Virus record (IMG/VR): IMGVR_UViG_3300050034_000353
Location: 1 to 24,253 of that record
Strand: one strand, 5' to 3'
Source of the DNA: a virus
Length of the DNA: 24,253 bases
Below are positions 1 through 20,661 of the stretch, in pieces (position 1 is the stretch's first letter; the number at the start of each line of letters is the position of its first letter). Both the position numbers and the translations under genes were made by a program. Below the pieces are notes generated by a model that searched no databases, was not told the origin of the DNA, and worked only from the letters and a program-made list of their open reading frames with translations.

Positions 1-407
1 CATAGTTTTTGTTCAGCGTGCCGCTGAACGGCGGTTCCGTGCCCTTCTTGTGAGAACAGAAAGTATATGTCCGGTGGTGGGAAGTGGTAGGAAGGCGCAG
101 GAAGTGGGCGGACGGCGCGGGTTTTATGCGTGAAAACGGCGCGCGCGGCGGGCTGATGATTACAGGAATTATATGGCCGGAAGCGGGGTAGTTCGCTTGG
201 ATTTTATAGCTAAGTCACTGATTCCCCGTCAGCATCCTAGCGAACCAAACGAACTCGGCGGTGAATGGCGGCAGTGGAAACTTCTAAATTATCAAAAACC
301 CGCGCCAACTGCGGATCTAAGCCACCTACAAATCCTAACGAACTCGCCCTGACAGCCCCAGTGTGGCCCTAATCCTAGCGAACTGGGGCCGACGGGCGAC
401 TGGGGCG
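1..407. other. Gene-free left margin; possibly host DNA followed by prophage end
   Basis: I see no convincing coding region here. Positions 11-18 and 22-29 form a perfect 8-bp stem (GTTCAGCG / CGCTGAAC) with a 3-nt loop, but no T-run follows it on either strand. A CAT at 1-3 could be the start codon of a gene running left out of the window, without a visible ribosome site. The right half (190-384) carries the short repeats listed separately. The change from host to prophage probably lies in this stretch, but I cannot place it. Confidence 0.5.
190..384. repeat. Five copies of a 13-bp motif; candidate transposase-binding sites at prophage end
   Basis: The copies are 234-246 (ATCCTAGCGAACC), 243-255 (AACCAAACGAACT, overlapping the first), 332-344 (ATCCTAACGAACT), 372-384 (ATCCTAGCGAACT), and one inverted copy at 190-202 (reverse complement ATCCAAGCGAACT). 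The core CC(T/A)A(G/A)CGAAC is invariant in form. I noticed no equal copy elsewhere in the window. MuA binds several short sites at each Mu end, so a cluster in the outer 200 bp of a Mu-like element fits end-recognition sites. The function is inferred. Confidence 0.6.
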
Positions 408-3290: not shown

Positions 3291-3824
3291 CTACTCTGTA
3301 AAGAGGGTCTGCGCGGAAACACACTTCCGCGCGGAAACATTCGCGTCGATTGGCTCCGGTTTGCGCCCACCGAGGCGCGCGATGTACTCGTGGAAGCTGC
3401 GCATGCTGATGCGCCAGCGAAGTCCGTCCTCAAGCTTGTAGCTCAGCAGCACACCGGCCTCGCACATCTCGCGGACGTTGCGCTCCGTGCAGTTCAGCAC
3501 ACGCGCTACATCGCCCACGCCCATCGTGTCAGTGAGTGGGAACGGCAGCAGGTCCACATCTTTGTGCCGGCCAAAGATGCCGTCGCGCTTGGGGCGGTTG
3601 TCACCGATCGCATACTTCACGCGCAGCGCGTCGCAGTAGCGCACGAGACTGGCATAGCTGATGTAGCAGTAGCCGCGCGGCTGCTTGCGCATGAACTCCA
3701 GGTCGCCGGCCTTGAGCATCATCAGCACCTCTTTGCGGCTCACGCCCAGGATGCGCATCACGCGCGAGGTCTCCACCTCGTCGCGCTCGGCGAATGGCAT
3801 CACGAATTGGCGAAGGTCGATCAT
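3291..3824 (-). CDS. Double helix-turn-helix DNA-binding protein, 177 aa
   Basis: Two similar HTH units of MerR/excisionase style are visible. The first covers about residues 17-66 (SRVMRILGVSRKEVLMMLKAG followed by a wing with GYCYISYASL). The second covers about 100-150 (GVGDVARVLNCTERNVREMCEAG, wing with LRWRISMRSF). Each ends in a helix like VRYCDAL or FHEYIARL. The start overlaps the stop of the GemA-like gene by ATGA. It is the last gene of the early operon, so an early-to-late or excision-type regulator is plausible, but this is inferred. The C-terminal residues (about 163-170) are encoded by a duplicated hairpin element. Confidence 0.75.
   Translation of the reverse strand: MIDLRQFVMPFAERDEVETSRVMRILGVSRKEVLMMLKAGDLEFMRKQPRGYCYISYASLVRYCDALRVKYAIGDNRPKRDGIFGRHKDVDLLPFPLTDTMGVGDVARVLNCTERNVREMCEAGVLLSYKLEDGLRWRISMRSFHEYIARLGGRKPEPIDANVSARKCVSAQTLFTE
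3311..3336. repeat. REP-like hairpin, copy 1 (inverted relative to copy 2)
   Basis: On the plus strand the element reads GCGCGGAA, ACACAC, TTCCGCGC, then GGAA. It therefore contains both an 8-bp stem with a 6-nt loop and a perfect 12-bp palindrome TTCCGCGCGGAA (3325-3336). The same structure recurs inverted at 17900-17925. Here it lies inside the last codons of the double-HTH gene, just before the secreted-protein genes. A role as transcript-end or processing signal is possible; no T-run follows. Confidence 0.7.
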
Positions 3825-8578: not shown

Positions 8579-9053
8579 TGGCGGCCTCCAGGAAACCTTG
8601 TTCGAGAGTCTTCGCGTCGTCAGGGAAAAGCTGCAGCTTGAGCTGGCCGAATGCGGTGTGGAACCCGGCGTGGTCCAGCGCCTTGACGATGCGCAGCTCG
8701 GTGAGCGCCTGCCGCAGATAGCTGCTCAGCGTGGCTACCAGCTCGTCGTTTGTGGTGATGAGGTAGTAGCCGGAGGCATCCGCATCGCGCGATGTGCCGA
8801 TGCCGATACCGATCAGCCGCAGCTCCTGCACGTCGGCACTCAGCTCGCGGCGTTTGCAGCGCAGGCGCGTGCACAGCTCTGCGCCAGAGATCATATGGCG
8901 CTGGCCACGACGGCACTCGATCTGCCGCAGCAGCTCCGCCTGACGCGGCGTGATGTGCCAGTCCGTAAACCGGCCGGCGATGACCTCCCGCAGCCGCGCG
9001 ACGTTGCGGTCTTCCAGCGTGTCGAAGAGCGAAGCCATATTCGGTGCTGCCAT
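8571..9053 (-). CDS. Winged-helix DNA-binding protein, 160 aa
   Basis: A helical N-terminus (ITPRQAELLRQIECRRGQ) leads into an HTH (ISGAELCTRLRCKRRELSAD, residues about 55-74) and a wing region IGTSRDADASGYYLITT (about 86-101), followed by a helix LSSYLRQALTELRIVKAL. The GTSRD..GYYL strand-turn-strand is typical of winged-helix proteins found in phage replication or regulation modules. AAAGGAC precedes the ATG, and a 140-nt gap with a strong hairpin separates it from the upstream gene, so expression may differ from the genes before it. Exact role unknown. Confidence 0.7.
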   Translation of the reverse strand: MAAPNMASLFDTLEDRNVARLREVIAGRFTDWHITPRQAELLRQIECRRGQRHMISGAELCTRLRCKRRELSADVQELRLIGIGIGTSRDADASGYYLITTNDELVATLSSYLRQALTELRIVKALDHAGFHTAFGQLKLQLFPDDAKTLEQGFLEAANG

Positions 9054-9158
9054 CGGGAGTGTCCTTTCTTTCTAAAATTCAGCGGCGGGGTGTTTCATGC
9101 TGGAAATATACGTAAACCAGATCCATGCATCTCGCGTGGCATCATGCCCCGCCACTGC

Positions 9159-9184
9159 TTTCCGCTGCCTTGACTCAGCGGAAA
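9159..9184. repeat. Strong intergenic hairpin, 9-bp stem
   Basis: TTTCCGCTG (9159-9167) and CAGCGGAAA (9176-9184) pair perfectly around an 8-nt loop, in the only sizeable gap of the early operon (9054-9193). No T-run follows on the minus strand, so it is not a standard intrinsic terminator. It could slow transcription, protect an mRNA end or bind a protein. The GCGGAAA end resembles the REP-like elements at 3311 and 17900, though the whole sequence differs. Confidence 0.65.
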
Positions 9185-9193
9185 CTTATGGCA

Positions 9194-9463
9194 TCAAACA
9201 ATCTTTGGGAGGTTCTCAACCAACCAATCTCGTAGAGGTTTCTTCTTCGAGCAGCTAATGGAAGATTTGGTGCTCATCAGCCTGTAACGTTCGCCGCGAT
9301 ACACACCTGCATCGTCGATCCAGAGATTGATTGCTCCGTTATCTGCGGCGGTTGTTGTAGCCCGATGAGTAGTCAGGTTGCGCATTGCCTGCGTCACCGT
9401 ATTGAAATCCGGCGCTTCGAGCTGCGCGGCCTTGACTCCTGGAAGTCCTTTCAAAATTGGCAT
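9194..9463 (-). CDS. Hypothetical early protein, 89 aa
   Basis: AGGAGA lies 6-7 nt before the ATG. The protein has a mixed N-terminal half, a strand-like INLWIDDAGVYRGERYRL, and a basic Ser/Lys stretch (STKSSISCSKKK) before the tail RDWLVENLPKIV. G+C looks lower than in neighbouring genes by eye. It is followed by the hairpin at 9159-9184. No family recognised. Confidence 0.6.
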   Translation of the reverse strand: MPILKGLPGVKAAQLEAPDFNTVTQAMRNLTTHRATTTAADNGAINLWIDDAGVYRGERYRLMSTKSSISCSKKKPLRDWLVENLPKIV

Positions 9464-9501
9464 TGCGTTCTCCTATCTCACTACTGCGTTGGCGGTTGCC
9501 T

Positions 9502-9732
9502 CTACTGCTCTACTTCGGGCAGTGGAGTTGATTCGAGTTGTTTGAGCATCCTGGTCACTGCCGCTTCGATGCGCTGCGCTTCCGCGCGGCGATCCAGCAG
9601 CTCTTCGAAGACAGCTGCCTTTGCTTCGGTCGCTGCGCGTATGCCGCTGTCTGTGGTCTTCGCTGCCTGCTCACGGCACTCTGCCGCGATGCGGGTAAGC
9701 TCTTCATCGGTGAAAGGGCTAAGACGAATCAA
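9502..9732 (-). CDS. Small coiled-coil protein with TTG start, 76 aa
   Basis: The TTG start overlaps the preceding stop as TTGA and has GAGGTGACGGC before it. Nearly the whole protein is heptad-like helix (ELTRIAAECREQAAKTT, then KAAVFEELLDRRAEAQRIEA, then VTRMLKQLES), so it is likely an oligomeric coiled coil. No catalytic motif. A chaperone, inhibitor or structural adaptor are all possible; nothing decides between them. Confidence 0.6.
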   Translation of the reverse strand: MIRLSPFTDEELTRIAAECREQAAKTTDSGIRAATEAKAAVFEELLDRRAEAQRIEAAVTRMLKQLESTPLPEVEQ

Positions 9733-10145
9733 GCCGTCACCTCGCTTTTCACATTTACCGTGCGCGCAGCGCTTTGCGCCTCAGCCGCGCTGCAGAGGTC
9801 CGCGATCATACAGATGTACTCGCGGCCTTCCGCGCTGGTGCGGTAGCGGCTGGGCTCGGCTGCGGTGCCGTAAAAGTGGATGTAGAGGTAGCCGGTGCCA
9901 AGCAAACCGATGACGGCGATCATCGGAGTGGGAAGCGCGCCGCGTTCGAGCCGCTCCAGGTGATCGGAGATCTCTTTCACAGTGAGGCCCTCGGCGCAGT
10001 CGCAGAGTTCCAGCACCGCACGGTCACGTAGTAGCGAGGGTTGCAGTGGGATGATCATCTGCGTACGGATCGGCGGCGGCGGTGGCACCGTCGTCCCTTT
10101 CGGACGGCTGAGATGGGATGGCTTATAAGGCTTGAATTTGTTCAT
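9729..10145 (-). CDS. Winged-helix-like protein with proline-rich N-terminus, 138 aa
   Basis: The first 30 residues are basic and proline-rich (a run of five Pro). The middle has an HTH-like pattern, RAVLELCDCAEGLTVKEISD followed by HLERLERGALPTPMIAVIGL and a wing GYLYIHFYG, ending in a helical Ala-rich tail. This fits a small winged-helix DNA-binding protein. The start overlaps the upstream stop by ATGA. No specific family recognised. Confidence 0.65.
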   Translation of the reverse strand: MNKFKPYKPSHLSRPKGTTVPPPPPIRTQMIIPLQPSLLRDRAVLELCDCAEGLTVKEISDHLERLERGALPTPMIAVIGLLGTGYLYIHFYGTAAEPSRYRTSAEGREYICMIADLCSAAEAQSAARTVNVKSEVTA

Positions 10146-10495
10146 GCCTGCACTGCCTTCTCCGCGACGAGGAAGGGGCGGGCGAGGATGAGCTGCTCGT
10201 CAACGGAAGCGCGAGGCCCCTGCGCGAGCAAAGCCTCCAGCGATGCGTCGATCTTCTTTGCCCAGGTTGATTTCTCGGCTGTGCCAGTGGCGTAGAGCTG
10301 CAGGGTGTTGTAACAGCGCGCGCAGGGCGACCAGCCGTCCATTGCGACGAAGATAGTGGCGTTGTGGCCGCAGTGCGAGCACACGGCCTCTGGCTTGACG
10401 TGGATGAAGACCTGCCCCGCCGCCAGCTCCACGCGAACCTCGCGGTCGCCGGCGGTGATGGGTGCGATCTGAGCGATGCTGCGCGGGCGACTCAT
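10142..10495 (-). CDS. Zinc-ribbon protein, 117 aa
   Basis: A beta-rich N-terminal half (REVRVELAAGQVFIHVKPE) leads to CSHCGH and, 19 residues later, CARCY, giving a four-cysteine zinc site at about residues 39-61. A helical tail with SLEALLAQGP follows. Its pattern AVCSHCGHNATIFVAMDGWS resembles the zinc-ribbon tail of the frame ending at 4414 (CSICGHDVRLY). ATGA overlaps link it to both neighbours. Nucleic-acid or protein binding is likely but undefined. Confidence 0.65.
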   Translation of the reverse strand: MSRPRSIAQIAPITAGDREVRVELAAGQVFIHVKPEAVCSHCGHNATIFVAMDGWSPCARCYNTLQLYATGTAEKSTWAKKIDASLEALLAQGPRASVDEQLILARPFLVAEKAVQA

Positions 10496-11253
10496 TTGGA
10501 TGCGCCGCCTTTCTTCTCAGCCTTCGCTGCTGTCTTGGCTTCTTTGGCGGCGACAGTCTTGGCCGCTTTCTCCTCAGCCTTCTTCTGCTGCGCGGCCTGC
10601 TCTTCTGTCAGGTCAATCACCTTCAGCGACGGCGACTTCGGCTTCGGGGTGAAGCACAGCGCGTAGAGCGAGTGGAAGGCCAGTGCATATTTCTTCGGCA
10701 CCGGCGCTGTTTCAATCACTTTGTCAGCCTTCGGCACCAGCGTGTACTCCACGCGGCGCTGGAAGATGAACGGGAAGAGGGACGCGATGCGCGCCTTGCG
10801 GCAGATCGTCTGGAAGTCCTCTACGCGCGAGTCGTTGATCTCAACCGGAGTGGCGCGCTGAATGTCAGCCTGGTACCGCTCCGTCGCGCAGCGGGTGGTT
10901 TTGTCTGCGCCGGTGGGCACGTATCCGAACTGATCGACGAAGAGTTGCAGCTCTTTCTTCCGGAGTTCAAAGGCGTCACTCGCGGAATCCTTCAGCGCCT
11001 GGCTAACGGTGTAGGCATCACAGAGCTTATGGAATGTGGCCTTGTCAAAGCTGCACTGCTCAGACTGCAGCACGTTGGCGATGGCGCTGGCTGCGACCTC
11101 ACAGGCGAGGCTGCCGGTCTTAGTGGAGCGGGTGGTGTAGTCTTTGCCGTTGGCCGGTGAGGTTGGCAGCTTGTCGCCGGTGACCTGTTCGAAGTACTTG
11201 CCGCGAACGGCCTTGGTCATATCGAGTGGCTGTGCTTCTGTGGTGGTTGTCAT
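10492..11253 (-). CDS. Conserved-looking early protein of unknown function, 253 aa
   Basis: This is one of the largest accessory early genes. AAGGAGC precedes the ATG. The protein is soluble and mixed alpha/beta through residue 205, with FELRKKELQLFVDQFGYVP and VEDFQTICRKARIASLFPFI as notable stretches. It ends in a long Lys/Ala helix rich in EEKAAKTVAAKEAKTAAKAE, like tails that bind nucleic acid. By position (soon after the ATPase gene) it could match Mu Gam or another end-protecting protein, but I see no sequence likeness to Gam. Function unknown. Confidence 0.65.
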   Translation of the reverse strand: MTTTTEAQPLDMTKAVRGKYFEQVTGDKLPTSPANGKDYTTRSTKTGSLACEVAASAIANVLQSEQCSFDKATFHKLCDAYTVSQALKDSASDAFELRKKELQLFVDQFGYVPTGADKTTRCATERYQADIQRATPVEINDSRVEDFQTICRKARIASLFPFIFQRRVEYTLVPKADKVIETAPVPKKYALAFHSLYALCFTPKPKSPSLKVIDLTEEQAAQQKKAEEKAAKTVAAKEAKTAAKAEKKGGASK

Positions 11254-11272
11254 GGTGCTCCTTCAGTTCGGG

Positions 11273-11554
11273 TTAGAGGTGAGGTGCTGCCGGAATATCA
11301 GTTCCGGTGGTGTCGATGATCGGTGGTGCTTCGAAGCTGCCCTGGTAGAGATAGCGATCCACGAAGACGGCCACGCCGCGCCGTCCGCAGACGTAGACCT
11401 CACTGATGCAGTTGTGGCGGACGGGATCAATCTTCTGGATGTGAATCGTGCCATCCGGCGTCGACCATAGCTCGCGCCAGGCATCGTCGAGAGAGTGCTC
11501 GTGCCGGCAGAAGCTGCAGAAGAGTTCGCGCGGCTTGGCGGTCTGTTCGCTCAC
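11273..11554 (-). CDS. Zinc-ribbon small protein with GTG start, 93 aa
   Basis: The GTG start overlaps the preceding stop as GTGA and has GGAGGTGCAC before it. CSFCRHEH near residue 13 and a second pair in CISEVYVCGRRG near residues 49-56 form a zinc site across a beta-rich domain (TIHIQKIDP, VAVFVDRYLY). The tail is Pro/Thr-rich. No family recognised; it belongs with the other small zinc proteins of the operon. Confidence 0.65.
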   Translation of the reverse strand: MSEQTAKPRELFCSFCRHEHSLDDAWRELWSTPDGTIHIQKIDPVRHNCISEVYVCGRRGVAVFVDRYLYQGSFEAPPIIDTTGTDIPAAPHL

Positions 11555-11727
11555 CGTGCACCTCCACTGATCAGGAATGCGAGGCCGCGATCCGCGATGG
11601 CGCGAGCAACTTCAAACGCCGCCCAGGTAACGACGAGCGCGAAGCCGACGCACATCACGCGCTCCAGCATTCGGTCAATACAGGGCCAGTTCATGTCTTC
11701 GAGCTTGCGGAGAATCCAGCCGTTCAC
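11551..11727 (-). CDS. Small membrane protein with GTG start, 58 aa
   Basis: Translated by eye, the gene begins VNGWILRKLEDMNWPCIDRM (GTG read as Met), continues with a hydrophobic helix VMCVGFALVVTWAAFEVARA and ends ISGGAR. One transmembrane helix is likely. The GTG overlaps the ATPase gene's stop as GTGA with GGAGGTCACC upstream, and its own stop overlaps the next GTG. It ends with the same GGAR tail as the membrane gene at 8450-8578, because the next gene's ribosome site is embedded in its last codons. Function unknown. Confidence 0.65.
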   Translation of the reverse strand: MNGWILRKLEDMNWPCIDRMLERVMCVGFALVVTWAAFEVARAIADRGLAFLISGGAR

Positions 11728-12722
11728 TGGGTGACCTCCTTCGAAGCCTTCGCCTGCTTGATGCCCGCGATGGTGTTGAAGAGCTTGCGCGCGCTGAGAT
11801 ACTCCGGTGCGCTGCCACGCTTGCTGCTGAATACGTCCTGCACCATGCAGCCGTTCAGGAAGGTGCGCATCTTGGTTGCCGTGAAATCCTTGACGCCGTC
11901 CAGTTCCTGTCGCACGATCTCAGCCGCGCGCTCCTCGCTGATGCCGGGCAGGCTGACTACGGTCTCGATGCGCGACTCCCACTGCTGCAGGTCTCCGGCG
12001 CGGTTGCTGAAGAAGTTGCGCAGTTTATGGCTGCCCAGTAGCATGACGCCGAAGTATGGCGGCAGGTCGTTCAGCTCGCGCACGATCTCCAGGCAGCGCA
12101 TGTCAAGGTGCTGCGCTTCGTCGAAGGTGAAGACCACACGGCGCGAGCGGAAGAAGAGCCGCAGACTGTTGAGGTTCGCCTGCAGGCTGCGCGCGGCGGG
12201 CAGTGCGCACGCCTGCATGATCTTGCGGATGAGGTCGCTGGGACGAATGTCCTGCGAGCAGTAGACGTAGAAGGCGCGCGCGCCGTGGCCGTTCTTGCTC
12301 AACTCGTCACGGTTGAGCTGCTCTAGGAGCGCCAGCATACTGAAGGTCTTCTGGCTGCCGGGCGCGCCGTAGACGACCACCATCTTGCCGTTCTTCAGTG
12401 TGTACTGGAACCACTGACGCAGCGTGGCCACATTCTCAGTGTCGTAGAGTTTGCCGCGCACCTTCTCGACGTCCCCTGCCGGATGCGCGTCGACGAACTT
12501 GACGATCTTGGCGATCACGTTCTTGTTGGTGCCGCTGATGCGGGCGTAGTTACCCTTGAAGAGCATGGAGAGCGTGTTGTCTGCGCAGCCGACGTGCCGC
12601 GCAAATGCCGTGAGCGTGAGGCCAGTGGCGGCCATGTAATCGCGCGCAATCTTCGTAGCTGCCTGGGCGTCAGGCAACTGCATGGCTGCGATCTCCTTCT
12701 TCCGTTCGTAGCTGAGTCCCAT
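11724..12722 (-). CDS. MuB-type transposition ATPase, 332 aa
   Basis: The protein has an N-terminal HTH (about residues 25-75, TLTAFARHVGCADNTLSMLF) and an AAA+ core. Walker A is G119-APGSQK-T126, Walker B is VVFTFDEA (196-203, D201 and E202), and VMLLGSHKLRN (226-236) fits sensor 1. This is the MuB layout: an ATP-dependent DNA-binding protein that forms filaments on target DNA, delivers it to the transposase and activates strand transfer, and confers target immunity. Length is close to MuB (312). The ATG follows the transposase TAG directly with GGAGG before it, so the two are translationally linked. Assignment is strong from motifs and position. Confidence 0.92.
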   Translation of the reverse strand: MGLSYERKKEIAAMQLPDAQAATKIARDYMAATGLTLTAFARHVGCADNTLSMLFKGNYARISGTNKNVIAKIVKFVDAHPAGDVEKVRGKLYDTENVATLRQWFQYTLKNGKMVVVYGAPGSQKTFSMLALLEQLNRDELSKNGHGARAFYVYCSQDIRPSDLIRKIMQACALPAARSLQANLNSLRLFFRSRRVVFTFDEAQHLDMRCLEIVRELNDLPPYFGVMLLGSHKLRNFFSNRAGDLQQWESRIETVVSLPGISEERAAEIVRQELDGVKDFTATKMRTFLNGCMVQDVFSSKRGSAPEYLSARKLFNTIAGIKQAKASKEVTQ

Positions 12723-14834
12723 CTAATCCTCCAAGAGTTGCTGAACCAGATCATGCGTGTAGAGCGGTTGGCGGACTGTGACCGTCCGTTGGGGTTTGAG
12801 TTGTGAACGCTGGGTAATGGCATCTGTGCCGGTGGCCAGCAGGGGAAGAACGTCGGGCTGCGCGTCAGCGTGTGCGGGCTGGCCGCTACTGGCTACGGCG
12901 CGGGAGAGTCCGGCGAGCGATTCGCGGGTGCTGCGCATCAGCGAGCGGCGCTGCTGCATGCTGGCGCTGATGCGGTCGCGCGTTTCCTTATCTCCGCTCT
13001 GGCGCATCAGCAACTCCGCCTGCAGCGTGCAGAGCAGGTGGCCGTCGGTATCGTAGATATCGACCGACTGCATATCGCAGGGGTCGTAGGCGACCAGCAC
13101 TTTGCGCGTTGTGTATTCGTGCATGATGGCGCTGGCATGCAGATCGTCTGTGCTGGGAACGTAGCGCCGACCCTGCAGGCTGACGGCGCAGGAATCTACC
13201 TTGCGTATCTCACGCTCCATCAGCAGCGAGCTGAGCAGTGCGGGGCTGGGCGCGGGGCGCGCATCCTTCCAGCGATCCGCCACGAAGACCTGCGCCGGCG
13301 AGCGACCATTCATGCCTTCGCCGGACTGCGGCTCAGCGTGGTAGTAGACCTCCAGCCAGTTCATGAACGCCTGCACTAATTCGCTGCATAGCGGAATGTC
13401 AGACTCTGCTGCGACCTGCGCGGAATCCATCTGGCCGCGCTTGCGCAGCATCATCAATCCCTTGTGCCGCGCGAACATGGCGTGGGTGCTGTCAGGCCGC
13501 AGATGCGCCGCTGGGCCGGTGTAGCTGGGCCACACCTTATCGAAGCGGTTATGCAGTGAATTGTGGAAGCGCTCCACGCCCTTCGACTGCGCGTGGTATG
13601 GCAAGCAGAAGGTGACGGCGATGTTGAAGCGCTGCATGACGCTGCCGCCCTTGCCGTCGCCGGTGAGTGAGCGCACACCCTCGCGGTGCATCTCTTCGGC
13701 CATGCGCTCGGCTTCGTCTAGCTCGTGCCGCTGCGCGCCCTTGGTGAATTTTTTGTAGTCTTTGCCGTTGTCGCAGTAGAAGCCGTAAGGGATGCCATGC
13801 GCGGTGATAGCGCGGCGAAATGCTGTCGCTAAGGACCGGCTGCTGCCGTTGCGCGAGAAGGCGACGCCGGTGACGTAGCGCGAGTGGTAATCGAACATGG
13901 TGGTGAGGTGCATGCGGATGGGCTGCAGGTCGCAGTCGTCGAAGATATCGTTCTGGCCGAGCACATCGAAGATCATGTGATCGGACTCCCATATCTCGTT
14001 GCTGGCCACGTCTGTGTACGCGCGGCGCAGGAACGGGCTGAAGGTCGCCTCGTACTTCTCCTGCCCCTGCAGCGCCAGCATTTTCATACTCACGCTGACT
14101 TCGTTCGGATTGTTGAGGAAGGCACGCACCGTCTCGTAGCTGGGCACGGCGGCCTCCACTTCCAGAGCGCGGGCGCGGACGTACTCATGCGCGACGGTGG
14201 CGCTGAGTTTGCGCTCTAGAAATACATAAGCCGCCAGCGTGGCCAGCTCAGGGTTCTGCTTGGCCCATCGCGATTGATTCTTGTCGGCTCGGCGCTTGTC
14301 TGCCAGAGCTACATCGCCACCATTGCGGCGGTAGCTGGATGCCCAGCGACGGATGCTGCGCGCGCTGACGCCGTGCAGCTCTGATAGATACTGCTCCAGC
14401 AGCTCGACGGTGGTGACGTTGCGGCCATTGGATATCTTGAGCTGTAGGTATTTATTTCTTTCGTAGCTTCCCGCCTGCGAAGCTCGGTAGTCCAGTATGG
14501 GTTGGATGATCTGCAACCGCTCTGCAGCCTTTGCCTGGTCGCGCGGATCGACGAGGACGACGCGCTCAGTGGATTGGTGGCCGGCGAAGAGGGGCGACAG
14601 GGTTATGGCGGTTCCCTGTGCTGCGACGCTCGCAACGTCTCCGCCGGCCAACTTGTTCTGCGCGTCCTGCGGTAGCGAGGCGGCACAGTATTCTTTGAGG
14701 GGCTTGCCGTTGCGTCCGCGCTGCCGCGTCTCACGCGCATGCAGCTTGCCGGTTGCAACCTGCATCTCCACCCACTTGGCAGAGCAGCCAGTCAGCTCCA
14801 TCACGCGTTCCTTGCTGAGCCAGAGATTCTTCAT
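12723..14834 (-). CDS. MuA-type DDE transposase, 703 aa
   Basis: The transposase cuts the prophage ends and joins them to target DNA during lysogenisation and replicative transposition. Residues 1-60 form a Mu-type winged HTH (LSKERVMELTGCSAKWVEMQ). The region about 110-250 is helical DNA-binding. The RNase-H-like core has the DDE triad at D285 (WESDHMIFD), D355 (FYCDNGKDY) and E421 (SKGVERFHNSL), against D269, D336 and E392 in MuA. A beta-barrel region follows near 545-610 (REIRKVDSCAVSLQGRRYVP), and the Arg/Gln-rich tail should contact the ATPase. Length is slightly above MuA (663). Its start overlaps the upstream regulator's stop by ATGA. Confidence 0.95.
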   Translation of the reverse strand: MKNLWLSKERVMELTGCSAKWVEMQVATGKLHARETRQRGRNGKPLKEYCAASLPQDAQNKLAGGDVASVAAQGTAITLSPLFAGHQSTERVVLVDPRDQAKAAERLQIIQPILDYRASQAGSYERNKYLQLKISNGRNVTTVELLEQYLSELHGVSARSIRRWASSYRRNGGDVALADKRRADKNQSRWAKQNPELATLAAYVFLERKLSATVAHEYVRARALEVEAAVPSYETVRAFLNNPNEVSVSMKMLALQGQEKYEATFSPFLRRAYTDVASNEIWESDHMIFDVLGQNDIFDDCDLQPIRMHLTTMFDYHSRYVTGVAFSRNGSSRSLATAFRRAITAHGIPYGFYCDNGKDYKKFTKGAQRHELDEAERMAEEMHREGVRSLTGDGKGGSVMQRFNIAVTFCLPYHAQSKGVERFHNSLHNRFDKVWPSYTGPAAHLRPDSTHAMFARHKGLMMLRKRGQMDSAQVAAESDIPLCSELVQAFMNWLEVYYHAEPQSGEGMNGRSPAQVFVADRWKDARPAPSPALLSSLLMEREIRKVDSCAVSLQGRRYVPSTDDLHASAIMHEYTTRKVLVAYDPCDMQSVDIYDTDGHLLCTLQAELLMRQSGDKETRDRISASMQQRRSLMRSTRESLAGLSRAVASSGQPAHADAQPDVLPLLATGTDAITQRSQLKPQRTVTVRQPLYTHDLVQQLLED

Positions 14835-15322
14835 AGCGCCACCCCGCGCAGGCGGCGCTGCAGACGCACGATCTGATCGTCGGCTTGGTTGCGCAGCAGA
14901 TACTGACGGCCAAGTTCGAGCAGGTCATGCTCGTCGTCGTTGATCACATGCAGCCCGCTGCGCTCTACGCGGAAGATGAGAAGACGATGGTCGCCAGTGG
15001 CCTGGCAAAAGGCGCGGTCCCAAGCGCCGGGCCAGCGGTGCAGCTCCTTGGATTCGGCGGTGAAGCTGGTGATCATGCGCGCCGTTACCTGCACTGCAAG
15101 CGACTCGCTCATCTCCTCGGCGATCTGCTCGCGGCTCTTGCCGCTCTGCTTGATGGAAGAGGTGATGATGCCGCGTACCAGCGAATCATCGTTGAGCGCG
15201 CCGGGCGTGTTATCGATGGAGGCGAAGCAGAGCTGCTGCTGCAGGTTGATGGAAGAATTCAGCGACGAGTCTTGCAGTGACTTCGCGGGTGCCGGCGGGT
15301 GAAACTGTGTTTGTGAGTTCAA
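14831..15322 (-). CDS. Conserved early phage regulator-like protein, 163 aa, TTG start
   Basis: The conserved core (residues about 45-118) includes KQSGKSREQIAEEMSESL, VTARMITSFTAESKELHRWP and WDRAFCQATGDHRLL. I associate this block with proteins encoded just before the transposase in Mu-like phages of Gram-negative bacteria; an HTH-like first part suggests DNA binding. The N-terminal 35 residues are Gln/Ser-rich, and the tail is a basic helix. The TTG start overlaps the upstream stop as TTGA, and the first internal Met comes only within the conserved core. In Mu the gene here is ner, a small regulator of early transcription; this one is larger and unrelated by eye. Confidence 0.7.
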   Translation of the reverse strand: MNSQTQFHPPAPAKSLQDSSLNSSINLQQQLCFASIDNTPGALNDDSLVRGIITSSIKQSGKSREQIAEEMSESLAVQVTARMITSFTAESKELHRWPGAWDRAFCQATGDHRLLIFRVERSGLHVINDDEHDLLELGRQYLLRNQADDQIVRLQRRLRGVAL

Positions 15323-15552
15323 GCGGCACGCTCCGTGCGGCGCTCGATCTCACGCTCGATGCGCTGGAGTTCTTGCTGTAACGCACGGCTAATTCGTTTG
15401 GAGGTGGTTTTGCCATTGGCGACGCGGCAGACGACTGACTCGTGAACATTGAGCTTCTTGGCAACGCGAGCCTGGATTCCGATGTAAAGGGAGTGCCGCA
15501 GCATCAGTACCGTCGTGCTACGCTTTTCGGGGGCAAGATTCTTGCTGACCAT
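15319..15552 (-). CDS. Small HTH protein, first gene of the early operon, 77 aa
   Basis: An HTH-like stretch GIQARVAKKLNVHESVVCRV (residues 25-44) is followed by a basic helix ALQQELQRIEREIERRTERA. This is a Ner/Cro-like position: the first leftward gene after the repressor. Start choice is uncertain. An in-frame TTG at 15570 would overlap the repressor ATG; the ATG at 15552 lies one or two bases after the predicted transcription start, so the mRNA may be leaderless; an ATG at 15504 gives 61 residues and keeps the HTH. None has a visible ribosome site. Its stop overlaps the next TTG start. Confidence 0.65.
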   Translation of the reverse strand: MVSKNLAPEKRSTTVLMLRHSLYIGIQARVAKKLNVHESVVCRVANGKTTSKRISRALQQELQRIEREIERRTERAA

Positions 15553-15553
15553 G

Positions 15554-15588
15554 TAGACGAGTCTGACCAATGGCTAATCAAAAGTCAA
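15554..15588 (-). promoter_or_regulatory. Predicted leftward early promoter
   Basis: On the minus strand, TTGACT (15588-15583) is followed after exactly 17 bp by CAGACT (15565-15560). The -35 matches the consensus at five of six positions; the -10 keeps only A2, A4 and T6. Transcription would start near 15553, at or beside the ATG at 15552. The promoter lies within the first codons of the divergent repressor gene. A short dyad AGAC-GA-GTCT (15555-15564) overlaps the -10. Confidence 0.5.
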
Positions 15589-16289
15589 GAGGAAAATTAG
15601 CAACTAATTCGGCATCTTTGGACATCGGGGAAAACCTGCGGATGCTCCGTGCCCGGCTGGGAGCAAATCAGCGTGAGTTTGCAAGGCTTTTGGGGGTTAC
15701 CCAGGGTGCTGTTGCTCACTGGGAGTCCGGCAATATAAAGCCTGCCGCAATAGCCCTGATGGCCATCGGCAAGCTGGATGAGGTGAACCGGAGTTGGTGG
15801 TTTGAGCAGGCAGGACCGGACTATGCCCGGCGCGATCAGATTGTGCAGGCGGTGAAGGATGAGGACGCAGCAGAACATTTAGACAGTTGCACGGTGCGCA
15901 TCTATAGCTGCGTTGGCGACGAGCCGAACCGATTCCTGCAGGAGCATGTCGAAACCGTTATGACGCTGCCGCAGACCTGGATAAAGGATGCGCCGTGGAT
16001 TGTGGGGCTGCGCGTAGTGGGCAACGATATGCGTCCGCTTATCCAGGATGGATTCATTGTGATCGTGAAGGTGCATGGCAAGAAGAACCTGGGTACACTA
16101 GACGGCCAGATCGTGGCGGCGAAGAGCGAACAGGGTATCTGTGTACGGTGGCTCAGGAGGAGTGGCGATGCGTGGCTACTGATGTCGCAGAGTGCCGAGT
16201 GTGCTCCAATCGATGTAAAGACGAGCGGCTATGAAGTGCTTGGCCGCGTGGTGTTGTGGATTGGCAGGCCAACCCTGCCGGGAAAGTGA
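15570..16289 (+). CDS. Phage repressor: XRE HTH plus S24-fold domain without catalytic residues, 239 aa
   Basis: Residues 20-70 are an XRE HTH (ENLRMLRARLGANQREFARL, then VTQGAVAHWESG). The C-terminal half (about 140-235) has the LexA/cI S24 fold: VVGNDMRPLIQDGFIVIVKV, GQIVAAKS and CVRWLRRSGDAW. In active members the first motif reads G-D/N-S-M-x-P with Ser as nucleophile, and a Lys follows about 40 residues later. Here these are D153 and R193, so self-cleavage should not occur. The domain would serve for dimerisation only, and induction would need an antirepressor or another signal. The ATG lacks a visible ribosome site, so a leaderless message is possible. It faces the early operon across overlapping control DNA. 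Confidence 0.88.
   Translation: MANQKSRGKLATNSASLDIGENLRMLRARLGANQREFARLLGVTQGAVAHWESGNIKPAAIALMAIGKLDEVNRSWWFEQAGPDYARRDQIVQAVKDEDAAEHLDSCTVRIYSCVGDEPNRFLQEHVETVMTLPQTWIKDAPWIVGLRVVGNDMRPLIQDGFIVIVKVHGKKNLGTLDGQIVAAKSEQGICVRWLRRSGDAWLLMSQSAECAPIDVKTSGYEVLGRVVLWIGRPTLPGK
15595..15609. promoter_or_regulatory. Candidate repressor operator, 15-bp perfect dyad
   Basis: AATTAG-CAA-CTAATT is a perfect inverted repeat inside codons 9-14 of the repressor gene, six bases beyond the -35 of the predicted early promoter. A further CTAAT half-site lies at 15574-15578 within the promoter spacer. The AT-rich dyad stands out in a G+C-rich region. Binding by the repressor is inferred from position. Confidence 0.5.
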
Positions 16290-16295
16290 GAGACG

Positions 16296-16574
16296 ATGAG
16301 CTTGCTGAACGAAGAGAATAAGGACACGAGCACCAACGAGGAGTTGGAGAAGTACTCCGGCAAACTATTTAGCCGCGTAGCCTGGTTCTATGTGCTGATG
16401 CCCATTGTGGGCGCTGCGCCCGGAATCATCGCGGCGATGAGTGCCTCGAACGATGCTACACCATATTGTATATTTCTCGCGCTCGTGGGTGCGCTTATTG
16501 GTGGTGTGATGGCCGACATCCTCGTCAGTTTCTTCCGGCTGCAAGCGCTGCGCGCCCGGAAGCTGACAGAGTAA
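16296..16574 (+). CDS. Two-TM membrane protein co-expressed with the repressor, 92 aa
   Basis: A polar acidic N-terminus of about 24 residues precedes two hydrophobic helices (about 28-48, WFYVLMPIVGAAPGIIAAM; about 57-80, YCIFLALVGALIGGVMADIL), ending in a basic tail. It starts six bases after the repressor stop, so it is probably transcribed in the lysogen. Genes in this position often encode superinfection exclusion or other lysogenic-conversion functions; that role is inferred. It ends immediately beside the stop of the convergent XRE gene, with no terminator between. Confidence 0.7.
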   Translation: MSLLNEENKDTSTNEELEKYSGKLFSRVAWFYVLMPIVGAAPGIIAAMSASNDATPYCIFLALVGALIGGVMADILVSFFRLQALRARKLTE

Positions 16575-16790
16575 CTACATTCCTTTGAAGAACTCCTCTA
16601 GCTTCACGTCGAGCGCCTGGGCGATCCGCGCCAGCGCGCCGACGGTGACGGACTTCTTGCCGCGCTCCAGCTCACTGATATAGACCGTCGTCAGTTCGGC
16701 ATGGTCGGCCAGCATGGGCTGTGTGAGGCCTTTGCTCGTTCTGAGAAGCCGTATCCTGCGGCCAATCTTTACAGACAGTGTGATCGCCAT
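16575..16790 (-). CDS. Small XRE-family regulator, 71 aa
   Basis: Almost the entire protein is one HTH_XRE domain: IGRRIRLLRTSKGLTQPMLA, then LTTVYISELERGKKSVTVGA, LARIAQALDVKLEEF. The recognition helix is in the TTVYISELERG stretch. It resembles C (controller) proteins of restriction-modification loci and small phage Cro-type regulators. It is convergent with the membrane-protein gene and divergent from the methylase gene; the shared upstream region holds the 12-bp dyad at 16825-16836. The same dyad follows the predicted rightward promoter, so it may regulate itself, the methylase and the late arm. That circuit is inferred. Confidence 0.8.
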   Translation of the reverse strand: MAITLSVKIGRRIRLLRTSKGLTQPMLADHAELTTVYISELERGKKSVTVGALARIAQALDVKLEEFFKGM

Positions 16791-16824
16791 ATCTCAAGCA
16801 TGGCTTCGCGCCGGAGGCAAACAT

Positions 16825-16836
16825 AAACTATTGTTT
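16825..16836. promoter_or_regulatory. Candidate operator O1 for the small XRE regulator
   Basis: AAACTATTGTTT has AAAC/GTTT half-sites around a 4-bp AT centre, in the divergent region between the XRE gene (start 35 bp away) and the methylase gene (start 69 bp away). The identical 12-mer occurs in reverse orientation at 17748-17759. XRE-type dimers commonly bind such short AT-rich dyads. Function is inferred. Confidence 0.5.
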
Positions 16837-16904
16837 GTTTAGTTGCAGAGTACCTTCTGTGCGCTGGCATTGAATGCGCAAATTTATGGAGCGACACTGC
16901 GCAA

Positions 16905-17675
16905 ATGAACTCTCCCTTCGCATGGCCCAGCGGCAAACGCTGCCTGAAGAAAACACTGCTCTCGCTGATTCCCCCACACACTATCTATGTTGAGGTCTTC
17001 GCCGGATCGGCGAAGCTGCTCTTCGGCAAGGAGCCGTCTCCGCGCGAGGTAATGAACGACCTGAACGGCGAGGTGACCAACTTCTTCCGCGTGGCCAAGC
17101 ATCGCCCGGCGGAGCTGGCTGAGCGTTTCGAGACAGACCTGGTGCATGGCGGCAGGTTCCGCGAGTTGCGGAGCGGCACCAAGGGCGACGATGAGCTACA
17201 GGATGCGCTGCGCTTTGCCTACCTGGTTTGGTACAGCTACGGCGCAAAGGGCGAGCACTTTGCCAGTTCTAATGCCAAGACGCTGCTGGCCGGCCACACG
17301 CGGAAATCGCTGGACCGCATCCGTGAATTACTGCTGGCCGTGAGTGAGCGGCTTAGCCATGTGTTGATCGAGCAGCGTGACTTTATAGATATACTGACGC
17401 GCTACGATTCACCGGAGACCTTCTTCTATCTCGATCCACCCTACGTGCACTTTCAGGCAAACGGACGTTATGACGCGCTGACGCAGGAGAAGCGCGAAGC
17501 GCTGTTTGCTCGCCTGGCAGAGCTGCAGGGGAAGTTTCTAATGAGCTTCGATGATTGCGCCGAGGTGCGCGCGCACTGCCGCCAGTACGGCTTCACGGTG
17601 AAGAGTGTGAGTGTGCCATACAAGCTTGGACAGAAGAAGGCGAAGCTAGGGCGCGAGGTGCTGATATGCAAATAA
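16905..17675 (+). CDS. dam: D12-class DNA adenine N6-methyltransferase, 256 aa
   Basis: The enzyme should transfer a methyl group from S-adenosylmethionine to N6 of adenine in DNA. The AdoMet-binding motif I is VFAGSAKLLF (31-40), a variant of FxGxG. ND at 51-52 (NDLNGEVTNFF) fits the next AdoMet contact. The catalytic motif IV is DPPY (177-180), and FLMSFDD with VPYKLGQ closes the fold. Length is normal for the D12/Dam class. A weak GGAG lies rather far upstream of the ATG. No restriction enzyme gene adjoins it, so it is an orphan phage methylase, probably for protection from host restriction or for methylation-dependent control. The target sequence cannot be read from the protein. The gene name is by family. 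Confidence 0.88.
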   Translation: MNSPFAWPSGKRCLKKTLLSLIPPHTIYVEVFAGSAKLLFGKEPSPREVMNDLNGEVTNFFRVAKHRPAELAERFETDLVHGGRFRELRSGTKGDDELQDALRFAYLVWYSYGAKGEHFASSNAKTLLAGHTRKSLDRIRELLLAVSERLSHVLIEQRDFIDILTRYDSPETFFYLDPPYVHFQANGRYDALTQEKREALFARLAELQGKFLMSFDDCAEVRAHCRQYGFTVKSVSVPYKLGQKKAKLGREVLICK

Positions 17676-17706
17676 CGATGCCCATCACAATCGCGTAATT
17701 GATGTA

Positions 17707-17735
17707 TTGACCTACCGCTCCAGCGTGGCTAGGTT
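17707..17735 (+). promoter_or_regulatory. Predicted rightward late-arm promoter
   Basis: TTGACC (17707-17712), a 17-bp spacer, and TAGGTT (17730-17735) form a sigma-70-like promoter with a good -35 and a weak -10. Transcription would begin near 17742, just before the O2 dyad, so a protein bound at O2 would block it. It faces the endolysin gene. Confidence 0.4.
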
Positions 17736-17747
17736 TGCAAACAGCAT

Positions 17748-17759
17748 AAACAATAGTTT
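17748..17759. promoter_or_regulatory. Candidate operator O2 (identical inverted copy of O1)
   Basis: AAACAATAGTTT is the exact reverse complement of the 12-mer at 16825-16836. Both copies also share nearby GCAAACA and ATAAAC. Its place just past the predicted transcription start fits repression of the late arm by the small XRE protein. Function is inferred. Confidence 0.5.
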
Positions 17760-17899
17760 GAGTCGGCGGCGACCCCCACGCACACCGAGAAGCGCCGCAG
17801 TTCCATTTGCCGGATTCCTCCGGCTCTCCCTCGCGCAGAGCGAGTAAACCATTCTGTTGAAGTTCGAAGACAAAATCGCGCCGATAGGCGCACCAATCT

Positions 17900-17925
17900 T
17901 TCCGCGCGGAAGAGTGTTTCCGCGC
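17900..17925. repeat. REP-like hairpin, copy 2
   Basis: The order is TTCCGCGCGGAA (perfect 12-bp palindrome, 17900-17911), GAGTGT, TTCCGCGC (17918-17925), so either the palindrome or an 8-bp stem with a 6-nt loop can form. Read on the opposite strand, copy 1 at 3311-3336 has the same order with one base changed in the loop. Here it lies in non-coding DNA ahead of the lysis genes. Confidence 0.7.
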
Positions 17926-18135
17926 GAACGCATATCGCTGTGCGCGCAGCCTACTCTGCAATCTAAGCCGCAAGGCTGCTTCTGCACTGCGCCACCATCC
18001 CTGAAGGAAAAGGAGGTCGCGGAGAATCGCCAGAGCCGCCGTGGATTCTCGCCCTCTTCCGTGGTGGTTGCAGGGCGAGACCGGCGTTTTAGATGCAGTC
18101 GTCAGTTTTCAGTTGTCAGAAAAGGTATAGGCGCG

Positions 18136-18645
18136 ATGGCCAGCAAAGAACAGCTCGATTGGTTGAAGCAGATGGCGCCGGCGGCGCAGGCTGCTGATGT
18201 GAAGTGGGGAGTTCCGGCCAGCGTGACGCTGGCGCAGGCCATCCTAGAATCCGCCTGGGGACAGAGTAAGCTGACGCGCCAGGCGAACAACTACTTCGGC
18301 ATCAAGGCTGAGCACCTGAACGTACCCAATACCTATGTTGAGTTCCCGACGATGGAGTACGAGTTCGGTGAGAAGAAGCAGGTCACCGCCGGCTTCGAGA
18401 AGTATCCCGATGCCGCAGCGTGCTTTGTGGATCACGCACAACTGCTGCACGATGCGCCGCGCTACCAGCCGGCCATGCGGGCGGCGAAGTCTCCGCAGGC
18501 GTTCGCGCAGATGCTGAAGACCTGCGGATACAGCACATCGCCCACCTACGCGCCGATGCTGACTGCACTGATGAACGAGTTCGATCTGTACCAGTACGAC
18601 AATCCACTACCGCAGCCTCCGGCTGCAGAAAAGAAGGCAGCATGA
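18136..18645 (+). CDS. GH73-type endolysin (endo-beta-N-acetylglucosaminidase), 169 aa
   Basis: The enzyme should cut glycan strands of peptidoglycan at the end of the lytic cycle. The family signature is clear: a catalytic Glu in TLAQAILESAWGQSKLT (E38), NNYFGIKAE, FEKYPDAAACFVDHAQLL, and CGYSTSPTYAPML, which corresponds to the conserved Y-A/S-T-x-x-x-Y-A motif. Length is typical for a single-domain phage GH73. There is no signal peptide, so release should depend on the holin-like proteins downstream. I chose the ATG at 18136, with AAGGTA upstream, over a longer frame that covers the control region. It overlaps the next gene by ATGA and has a Pro/Lys/Ala tail. Confidence 0.88.
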   Translation: MASKEQLDWLKQMAPAAQAADVKWGVPASVTLAQAILESAWGQSKLTRQANNYFGIKAEHLNVPNTYVEFPTMEYEFGEKKQVTAGFEKYPDAAACFVDHAQLLHDAPRYQPAMRAAKSPQAFAQMLKTCGYSTSPTYAPMLTALMNEFDLYQYDNPLPQPPAAEKKAA

Positions 18646-19376
18646 ACCTGGACAAACTGAAAATGAATACGCGTGGTGGGATGCGACCGGCGTTTGCCGT
18701 CTTCGTGCTCGCCATCATCCTGTTCGCTGTGGCCACGCTGGCGGGTTGCCCGCAGAGCACCCCACTGCACAAGGCATTGGTCGCGGCGGATTCCATCGGC
18801 TCGGCGCTGAACAGTGCCGCACAGATCAACCATGAAGACACGCTGGAGACCGTCGCGGACCGCGCCGCGCTCGCCAGTTACATCGACGGGCTGGCCAAGC
18901 TCAACGACGCGTTTGTGGCGCAGCTCAAGACGGCAGAGGCAAACAATGGCCAGGTGACGGCCGCGCAGATTGTCTCCGCATTCAACGCGCTCAATACCCA
19001 GGCGCAGAGCCTGCAACAGCAGGGGTTGCTGCACCTGAAAAGCGCCTCGGCCCAGTCGCAGTTCAACAGTGTGACGGCGACCATCCAGACGCTGCTGACC
19101 ACCATCCAGGCGCTGTTGCCTGCGGTGAGCTCGCACAATCGCTTGCCGGGGCATGGCGCGCCGCTGGCGCTCTGCGTGCTGGCGCTTACGCCGGAGGAGA
19201 TCACGGCGCTGCTGGCACTGCTGATCCCGCTGGGCGAACAGGCCGTGACGCTGGTGGAAAAACTTACAGCCATGAAGAGCGAGACGGACGCGCAACTACA
19301 GGCAGACGCGCTATCGCAGGACGCACAGGCTGAGGCGGTGGCCGAAGCGGATGAGGCCGCGGGCTCGACAAGCTAA
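18642..19376 (+). CDS. Predicted lipoprotein in the lysis cassette, 244 aa
   Basis: A basic n-region (KMNTRGGMR), a hydrophobic core FAVFVLAIILFAVAT and a lipobox LAG-C36 indicate a lipoprotein exported and lipid-anchored at Cys36. The mature part is long, helical and rich in Ala, Gln and Leu (for example AALASYIDGLAKLNDAFVAQ). Near the C-terminus LTPEEITALLALLIPLGEQA is a second hydrophobic stretch, then an acidic Ala/Glu/Asp tail. Its place directly after the endolysin, overlapping by ATGA, suggests a function in lysis. An outer-membrane spanin-like part is a reasonable guess, though it is far larger than known Rz1-type spanins. Confidence 0.72.
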   Translation: MNLDKLKMNTRGGMRPAFAVFVLAIILFAVATLAGCPQSTPLHKALVAADSIGSALNSAAQINHEDTLETVADRAALASYIDGLAKLNDAFVAQLKTAEANNGQVTAAQIVSAFNALNTQAQSLQQQGLLHLKSASAQSQFNSVTATIQTLLTTIQALLPAVSSHNRLPGHGAPLALCVLALTPEEITALLALLIPLGEQAVTLVEKLTAMKSETDAQLQADALSQDAQAEAVAEADEAAGSTS

Positions 19377-19418
19377 ACCAAGACAAAACAACAACGACAG
19401 CAGTAGACGCAGCAAGGC

Positions 19419-19442
19419 GGGGAGGGGGCAAGACCCCTCCCC
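19419..19442 (+). repeat. Strong G-rich hairpin between late genes
   Basis: GGGGAGGGG (19419-19427) and CCCCTCCCC (19434-19442) pair perfectly around a GCAAGA loop. It lies 42 nt after the lipoprotein stop and 10 nt before the next ribosome site. No T-run follows, so termination is uncertain. It may stabilise or process the mRNA or modulate translation of the downstream gene. Confidence 0.7.
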
Positions 19443-19464
19443 GTCGAAGTACAGGAGATTTGAG

Positions 19465-20118
19465 ATGGTTCAGGTTGCGATGACACCCGAAGATTTCAAG
19501 GCGAAGGCAGCACAGCTCCGCGCCGAGCAGGGGCTCGATCTGGCAGGCTCGACCGGTGGCCAGGTATCGAAGGACGGCATCACCGCCGAGTGGGCCTACG
19601 ACGGCAGGAGGCTGACGGTCACGGTGCTGAAGAAGCCCTTCCTTTACAAGATGAGTATGTGCGAGGACAAGCTCCGCGCCTGGTTGAGCGCGTCGGCAGC
19701 GGTGCTGCTGATGTTTGTGCTGAGCTTTGTGCCGGCACGCGCCCAGGTGTTGCCCGATGCGCCGAGCGCGGTGAAGCATCTGGCGGATATCCAGTCTTGC
19801 GGCGATCAGTATGATGCAGCGGCCAACGCGGCCAACGATGCTTTCTGGCTCTCAATAGGACCGCAGGCCGAGCGCTTCAACAAGATGTTCGAGGACTTCT
19901 CGGCGATTGGGCTGCTGCTCTCGCCTTTGCGCGCGGAGCGGGAACCCGTCTACAAGCTCTTCTGTGGCGCGGCGGATCGCGCGGCGCTGGCAGCCATCGT
20001 GGCGCAGCTTCCGAAGAAACCTACGGAGGCGCAGGTGCGTGCGGAGTATCTCTCCGGCCTCAGTAAAAGGGTCCACGCAGAGCTCCAAAATGGCGGATTG
20101 GCAAAATTAGCCCCGTAG
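19465..20118 (+). CDS. Membrane-anchored protein with apparent domain fusion, 217 aa
   Basis: AGGAG lies 8 nt before the ATG at 19465, deciding the start. Residues 1-70 form a small cytoplasmic-type domain (MTPEDFKAKAAQLRAEQGLD, then GITAEWAYDGRRLTVTVLKK), a pattern I recall as a separate small gene in related prophages. From about residue 75 there is a hydrophobic segment (AVLLMFVLSFVPARAQ) that reads like a signal peptide, followed by VLPDAPSAVKHL and a helical domain with two cysteines. The LPDAPS motif after AQ is one I associate with secreted proteins of Acidobacteriota. The product may be a fusion of two genes, or the second part may also start internally at Met63 or Met65. Function unknown. 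Confidence 0.65.
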   Translation: MVQVAMTPEDFKAKAAQLRAEQGLDLAGSTGGQVSKDGITAEWAYDGRRLTVTVLKKPFLYKMSMCEDKLRAWLSASAAVLLMFVLSFVPARAQVLPDAPSAVKHLADIQSCGDQYDAAANAANDAFWLSIGPQAERFNKMFEDFSAIGLLLSPLRAEREPVYKLFCGAADRAALAAIVAQLPKKPTEAQVRAEYLSGLSKRVHAELQNGGLAKLAP

Positions 20119-20161
20119 AGCGACCGGAGGCGGTCAGCGTAGGGTAGCCGCCCCGAATTAC

Positions 20162-20175
20162 TGCCACGCGTGGCA
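20162..20175. repeat. 14-bp perfect palindrome
   Basis: TGCCACGCGTGGCA lies in the 126-bp gap between two late genes. It could form a small hairpin or bind a dimeric protein. No T-run follows. A further mini-hairpin with a GAAA loop lies downstream at 20221-20232. Confidence 0.55.
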
Positions 20176-20220
20176 CGAATTTCCTGACGCGATCTAAGGG
20201 CATCAGGGAGCAGGGTTTGA

Positions 20221-20239
20221 CCCCGAAAGGGGCAGGAGG
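20221..20239 (+). promoter_or_regulatory. GNRA-type mini-hairpin abutting a strong ribosome site
   Basis: CCCC-GAAA-GGGG (20221-20232) is followed one base later by AGGAGG (20234-20239), five bases before the ATG at 20245. A GAAA tetraloop hairpin touching the ribosome site could tune translation of the holin-like gene. This is a structural reading only. Confidence 0.45.
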
Positions 20240-20244
20240 ACGAA

Positions 20245-20661
20245 ATGCAGCAAATTTGGACAAACATGCGCACCTGGTTCATGGGCAAGAAGACGATGAT
20301 CGGCGGAGTCGTAGTGATTGCCGCTGCGGGGGTGAGCTGCTTCCTCGGTCACCTCTCGGTGGCCAACGCCGTGTTGGTCGCCGGTTTAGGGTTCAGCATC
20401 TGCGGGAAGGCCGCCAAAGATAACCGGCTGCTGGCCGCCCTGAGCAACGTGGCGCAAGCCGGCGTGGATCTGCGGCTGGGGGATAAGGCCGGCGCGCTGG
20501 CGGAGTTGAAGCCGCTGGCGATGACAGCCGGCGTCTCCCTGGTGCCGCAGGCGGCAGCCACGCTGCACCTGAGCGCAGCCAACGGCGCAGAGCTGCAGGG
20601 GATGGTGGATGAGCTGGCGACGCCGATGGTATCGCGCGTGAAGGACGGTGCCACCGCATGA
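20245..20661 (+). CDS. Holin-like membrane protein, 138 aa
   Basis: After a short polar start come two hydrophobic helices (about 17-35, TMIGGVVVIAAAGVSCFLG; about 38-55, SVANAVLVAGLGFSI), then a soluble Ala/Leu helical domain of about 80 residues. Two-TM proteins beside an endolysin are typical class II-like holins, which open the membrane so the endolysin can reach the wall. The long C-terminal domain is unusual for a holin, so another membrane role is possible. The ribosome site is excellent. The stop overlaps the next ATG. Confidence 0.65.
   Translation: MQQIWTNMRTWFMGKKTMIGGVVVIAAAGVSCFLGHLSVANAVLVAGLGFSICGKAAKDNRLLAALSNVAQAGVDLRLGDKAGALAELKPLAMTAGVSLVPQAAATLHLSAANGAELQGMVDELATPMVSRVKDGATA

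Follow-up and report, generated by a model that had tools for sequence, protein, structure and literature searches.

What is the role of a cluster of short repeats that lies just inside the left end of a Mu-like phage? The DNA in question, referred to here as the window, constitutes a separate virus record of 24,253 nucleotides (IMG/VR record IMGVR_UViG_3300050034_000353). The original prediction held that five copies of a motif at positions 190–384 are likely transposase-binding sites of the kind that Mu carries at each end. From the comparisons presented below, the array is instead proposed, with a probability of roughly 0.84, to be a free-standing transposition enhancer (internal activation sequence) of the Mu type, belonging to a Mu-like phage of Terriglobales bacteria, a reading drawn from sequence comparison and a predicted structure.

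The five-copy cluster is real. Three exact copies of ATCCTARCGAAC are present on the plus strand at positions 234, 332 and 372, accompanied by an inverted copy with one mismatch at 191–202 and a weak, overlapping copy with two mismatches at 243–254. A scan of the whole window at up to one mismatch identified four copies, all of them within 191–383, which bears out the observation that no equal copy is present elsewhere; approximate dinucleotide shuffles averaged 0.18 and never exceeded 2. At up to two mismatches, seven copies were found in the window against a shuffle mean of 2.13, and the only matches outside the array at this threshold were two weak, chance-level ones at 8364 and 14099. The array is located about 140–340 bp inside the left end of the phage, which is placed at base 49. 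The features of this region are as follows, with the array sites given as 14-mers.

49–74, plus strand: left end and end-type site L1, TGTGAGAACAGAAAGTATATGTCCGG, aligning with the left ends of relatives
114–125 and 295–306: arms of a 12-bp perfect inverted repeat, GGCGCGGGTTTT / AAAACCCGCGCC
157–182, plus strand: end-type site L2, TGATTACAGGAATTATATGGCCGGAA, a repeat common to L1 and R1–R3
190–203, minus strand: array site 1, inverted, AATCCAAGCGAACT on the minus strand, +141 from L1
209–223, minus strand: IHF-like site, AATCAGTGACTTAGC, between sites 1 and 2
233–246, plus strand: array site 2, CATCCTAGCGAACC
242–255, plus strand: array site 3, weak and overlapping, GAACCAAACGAACT
331–344, plus strand: array site 4, AATCCTAACGAACT
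371–384, plus strand: array site 5, AATCCTAGCGAACT, 40 bp past site 4 in most relatives

As a sequence match, the IHF consensus WATCAANNNNTTR is present with one mismatch in the window and perfectly in the relatives p079, p100 and p275. An IHF-like site is kept between sites 1 and 2 in most relatives.

The gene content of the window is that of a Mu-like transposable phage, with a DDE transposase, a MuB ATPase, a gp27-type small terminase and a large terminase. Early genes (transposase, MuB-like ATPase) are directed leftward and late genes (small and large terminase, portal) are directed rightward. The genes of importance to this study are listed below.

11724–12722, minus strand: MuB-like AAA ATPase (PF13401)
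12723–14834, minus strand: Mu-family DDE transposase, 703 aa (PF09299 and rve, phrog_310)
14655–14834, minus strand: coding region of an I-alpha-like winged-helix domain, transposase residues 1–60
15570–16289, plus strand: cI-like repressor (HTH_3 and Peptidase S24), some 15 kb away from the array
21397–22260, plus strand: small terminase of the Mu gp27 family (PF11985, phrog_426)

A D12-class adenine methyltransferase gene at 16905–17675 is kept in several relatives. An element of approximately 31 bp, GCGCGGAAAnACnCTTCCGCGCGGAAA, occurs at the non-adjacent window positions 3311–3341 and 17895–17926 and at 17823–17854 of the sister contig G001; it is perhaps a regulator or promoter site.

The left end was assigned to base 49 on the basis of an alignment to relatives with 5-bp target duplications, and window bases 1–48 would be host flank. 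These relatives come from complete Terriglobales genomes obtained via order-level searches; an initial scan of genome contigs with the transposase had produced no match. In G212 (p212), a 5-bp repeat, GCTTC, bounds a phage with TG...CA ends, while G009 (p9) has the repeat GGGTC and a left end of TT rather than TG. The contig of L224, the closest relative, stops short, and searching its DNA gave no left end. The right end is available from the sister contig G001 (IMGVR_UViG_3300047642_000013, 35,356 bp), which is 99.9% identical over window positions 8888–24242 and reaches past the right end into host DNA encoding tsaD and a CCA-adding enzyme. By alignment, this end is base 2329 of L037 (in G001). 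Since the flanks of the window and G001 differ, the two are different insertions. The final 11 bases of the window (24243–24253) do not align to G001 and are probably an assembly edge.

Both phage ends contain one repeat, ACAGGAATTATnTGgCCGG, represented by L1 and L2 on the left and by R1–R3 at positions 2329–2402 of the G001 right end. Sites L1 (49), L2 (157), R1, R2 and an inverted R3 have ACAGGAATTATATGgCCGG-like sequence in common, and the L1–L2 distance of approximately 110 bp is conserved in relatives. In p127, TACAGGATTTA..TGCACC is found at L1, L2, R1, R2 and an inverted R3; p037 and p087 each have three tandem copies of the end repeat at the right end. The array motif, on the other hand, was found neither at the right end in G001 nor at the right ends that were read in relatives. 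A Mu-style end site, as originally predicted, would be expected to recur at the other end, and this part of the prediction does not hold. The L1/L2/R1–R3 repeat is the better candidate for the end sites, judging from its distribution. An alternative left end at 174, suggested by a shared TGGCCGGAA, was rejected because TGGCCGGAA belongs to the L2/R1 repeats and because the ends of relatives with 5-bp duplications sit further out. The spacer between L1 and L2 (window 75–156, and also in relatives) contains GCGGG/GGCGGG blocks at roughly one per helical turn.

Counterparts of the array were identified in at least 26 relatives, in which the spacing of the sites is nearly the same and the sequence is different. 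In most relatives, the inverted site is found at +140 to +152 from L1, and across 27 phages the direct sites are at about +183–213, +282–302 and +322–349; the first direct site is often trailed by a second copy that is weaker or inverted. Such regularity in spacing is compatible with a nucleoprotein complex of defined structure. The motif consists of AATCC(T/A)A followed by a variable half in 22 of the 27 tabulated phages, the variable halves being GCGAACT (window), GCGACAG, GTGCCAT, CGGACAT, CGGAACT, CGCAACT, GTCCACT, GTCTCAC, CGGCAAC and others. The ATCC half is absent from the remaining five (p9, p168, L278, L236 and q112), whose motifs were aligned by eye on the variable half. All motifs were gathered by hand and eye and then counted by script. 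When all loci were scanned de novo by architecture alone, many false positives in GC-rich coding sequence came up, so only array positions at detected left ends were used. A scan of viral contigs for the exact window motif produced 25 loci with one copy each, no excess over a chance level derived from the information content of the pattern.

Sequence differences in the variable half-site follow those in the recognition helix of the transposase N-terminal domain. In the window protein, this helix comprises residues 19–28 (SAKWVEMQV) and is followed by a wing, RGRNGK, with its loop at residues 40–44 (GRNGK). Over 27 phages the Mantel correlation was r = 0.70 (p = 0.0002, Mantel p-values treating the phages as exchangeable), and it was maintained when the distance of the catalytic domain (0.71) or of residues 85–235 (0.70) was removed. 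With respect to the motif, no correlation was detected in the same type of test for the catalytic domain (r = 0.00), MuB (r = −0.04) or the small terminase (r = −0.04, p = 0.65, 19 phages). The small terminase served as a control for a packaging site, and in the same 19 phages the I-alpha helix had a partial r of 0.82. Residues 85–235 were uncorrelated once the helix was accounted for (r = −0.03). Since the catalytic domain is uncorrelated with the motif, shared ancestry is argued against as the cause. Weak correlations were obtained for the repressor (r = 0.23, partial 0.22), reg163 (r = 0.21) and other early genes (0.12–0.26), as linkage would give.

Individual cases illustrate the trend. 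Helices of the type (S/T)DRWLR are found in five different transposases, all of them paired with CGGAACT and most with catalytic domains of only 40–60% identity; SRRTFFR helices occur with GTGCCAT and GTGCCAC, TPRS(I/V)ER helices with GCGACAG and GCGACAT, and SDRT(I/V)R helices twice with CGGCAAC. Over these examples, the catalytic domains are mostly about 40–50% identical. The ATCC half is associated with the wing, being present in 22 of 22 phages with an NG(R/K) wing and in none of the five without an NG wing (Fisher 1.2e-5, or 7.7e-5 after adding six unclear phages; several of the Fisher tables in this study contain hand-scored cases). For example, p037 combines an SDRTIREK helix and an NGR wing with AATCCAACGGCAAC, and q112 combines an SDRTVRLK helix and an SGR wing with CAAAACGGCAAC.

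Loss of the domain is also reflected in the array. In six phages (p135, p198, p278, L249, L255 and L257) no I-alpha domain was detected; these have no array but mostly retain L1/L2 and mostly the IHF-like site, and two others with a transposase lacking I-alpha (L256 and L266) have decayed or degenerate array remnants at the left end. The association between I-alpha absence and array absence or decay gave a Fisher value of 3e-4. There are exceptions. In p275 (G275:C108, L191, 10030–10380) the array, AATCCAACCCAACT, is intact and I-alpha was not detected; the transposase gene is damaged at its start, and the loss is possibly recent. Conversely, no clear array accompanies the I-alpha-like domain of p114, and the fit to the helix and wing rules is poor or unclear for p047, p307, L270, q138 and q138b.

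An AlphaFold2 model of transposase residues 1–73 produced a winged helix with a mean pLDDT of 81, in which a helix spans residues 19–28 and a wing lies between strands 33–39 and 45–50. The covarying residues map to this recognition helix and to the wing loop at 40–44. A Foldseek search against the PDB identified the DNA-binding domain of the Mu repressor (1qpm, TM 0.60) and MuA I-alpha (1tns, TM 0.61) as the best matches; the VIA-align Z scores of 6.5 (1qpm) and 6.0 (1tns) are middling and of a size also seen for other winged helices such as a phage Xis. A sequence-profile search of the PDB with the I-alpha alignment returned chance hits only. Pfam did not call the I-alpha domain in the window protein itself, and PF02316 (Mu DNA-binding domain) matched three of 24 family members, with a best value of 8.6e-4. 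From the covariation and the predicted structure, the array sites are well supported as putative docking sites for transposase I-alpha. Transposase binding, as originally proposed, stands as a prediction based on the covariation of motif and I-alpha; the sites are not of the end type.

The array is read as an enhancer rather than as end sites: it covaries with the domain corresponding to MuA I-alpha, and neither the end-binding nor the catalytic portion of the transposase covaries with it. In the proposed mechanism, transposase subunits would hold the phage ends through L1/L2/R1–R3, and the same end-bound subunits would dock on the five array sites via the N-terminal winged-helix I-alpha. The recognition helix would read the variable half (GCGAACT in the window) and the wing loop GRNGK would read the constant ATCC half. 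A protein of the IHF type may bend the stretch that separates the inverted site 1 from site 2, and the resulting L–enhancer–R scaffold would start replicative transposition.

In Mu, I-alpha binds an internal enhancer while I-beta-gamma bind L1–L3 and R1–R3 (PMC3362531, PMC3562280). Mu also has an IHF binding site, at which IHF affects early transcription and transposition (PMC3820752). The window array resembles the Mu enhancer (IAS; O1–O2) in having several short repeated sites that are clustered near the left end and distinct from the end sites, with an IHF-type site inside the array by sequence match. As in Mu, recognition is attributed to an N-terminal winged helix of the transposase, with a predicted fold as in 1tns, that is separate from recognition of the end sites. 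Similarly, Mu attL and attR (L1–L3, R1–R3) have their likeness in L1, L2 and the TG...CA ends of the window phage, in R1, R2 and the inverted R3 of the sister contig, and in the 5-bp duplications of relatives. The two phages differ in their sites, only L1 and L2 being recognised at the left end of the window phage, and in that the end repeats are another repeat than the array motif. A further difference is one of location. The Mu enhancer is an operator/enhancer region beside the repressor gene, whereas the window array is stand-alone; it is neither situated at the early operator nor shared with the repressor, and no copies of the motif were found near the repressor gene (15570–16289). Given its position at the left end, approximately 15 kb from an S24-type repressor, the array is counted as a variant distinct from the Mu enhancer itself.

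Three other roles for the array were weighed. There is a slim chance that it is a packaging initiation site (pac/cosB-like) with the repeats bound by the small terminase. In λ cosB, gpNu1 sites flank an IHF site (R3–IHF–R2–R1), an order that the inverted site, IHF-like site and direct sites of the window resemble. The array is confined to the left end, and a Mu gp27-type small terminase is encoded. Mu packaging itself begins beyond the left end (PMC5977238). However, the motif of the window family differs from cosB in covarying with the transposase and not with the small terminase, in the very phages where the I-alpha helix correlation is strong, and phages without I-alpha retain their packaging genes yet lose or degrade the array. 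The chance is slimmer still for an operator array through which a phage transcription regulator would silence the early operon at its end, or else an outward promoter. The Mu repressor and transposase do share their site, and the repressor in the window family shows some correlation with the motif, but one far weaker than that of I-alpha; moreover, the array is downstream of the early operon and remote from a repressor that is HTH_3/S24 rather than a winged helix of the Mu c type, with no copies of the motif beside the repressor gene.

The slimmest chance is left for the reading originally put forward, with classical attL end-type sites bound by I-beta-gamma, and as stated it is refuted. While the array adjoins the left end and is linked to the transposase, the motif is missing from the right ends, another repeat occupies both ends, and residues 85–235 add nothing once the helix is considered. 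A reading of the inverted and direct copies as an RNA hairpin or anti-repeat was dropped since the motif tracks a transposase domain.

Beyond the window, the stand-alone enhancer may be representative of a large clade of Acidobacteriota Mu-like phages with free-standing enhancers, a two-part recognition code and enhancer loss upon domain loss, the overlap seen in Mu being derived; this wider proposal is tentative and placed at somewhat less than even odds. If true, the wing would correspond to the constant half and the recognition helix to the variable half, in a code that diversifies fast and keeps the transposase of each phage specific to its own genome. Such matched variation of site and domain hints at a way in which Mu-like phages residing together may escape cross-action on each other's genomes. 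In the open-licence literature, the enhancer is described for Mu and near relatives and is always tied to the operator of the repressor; if the proposal is true, this overlap of enhancer and operator would be a derived fusion and not the rule. With natural enhancer variants matched to variants of the transposase domain, reading by I-alpha and the need for an enhancer become testable by domain or site swaps, and the analysis offers a route to enhancers in other transposable phages.

Other sequence elements accompany the array. The 12-bp inverted repeat (114–306) encloses L2 and sites 1–3, and its arms contain TTTTCCACA in several relatives. The clearest example is L232, with arms of about 27 bp containing TTTTCCACA / TGTGGAAAA, a sequence similar to a DnaA box. 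A short palindrome, CTATGGAAAAYCATAG, is located directly 3' of site 5 in L232, L238, L243, L246, L231, L278 and p275, and it is also present where the array has been lost, as in L266.
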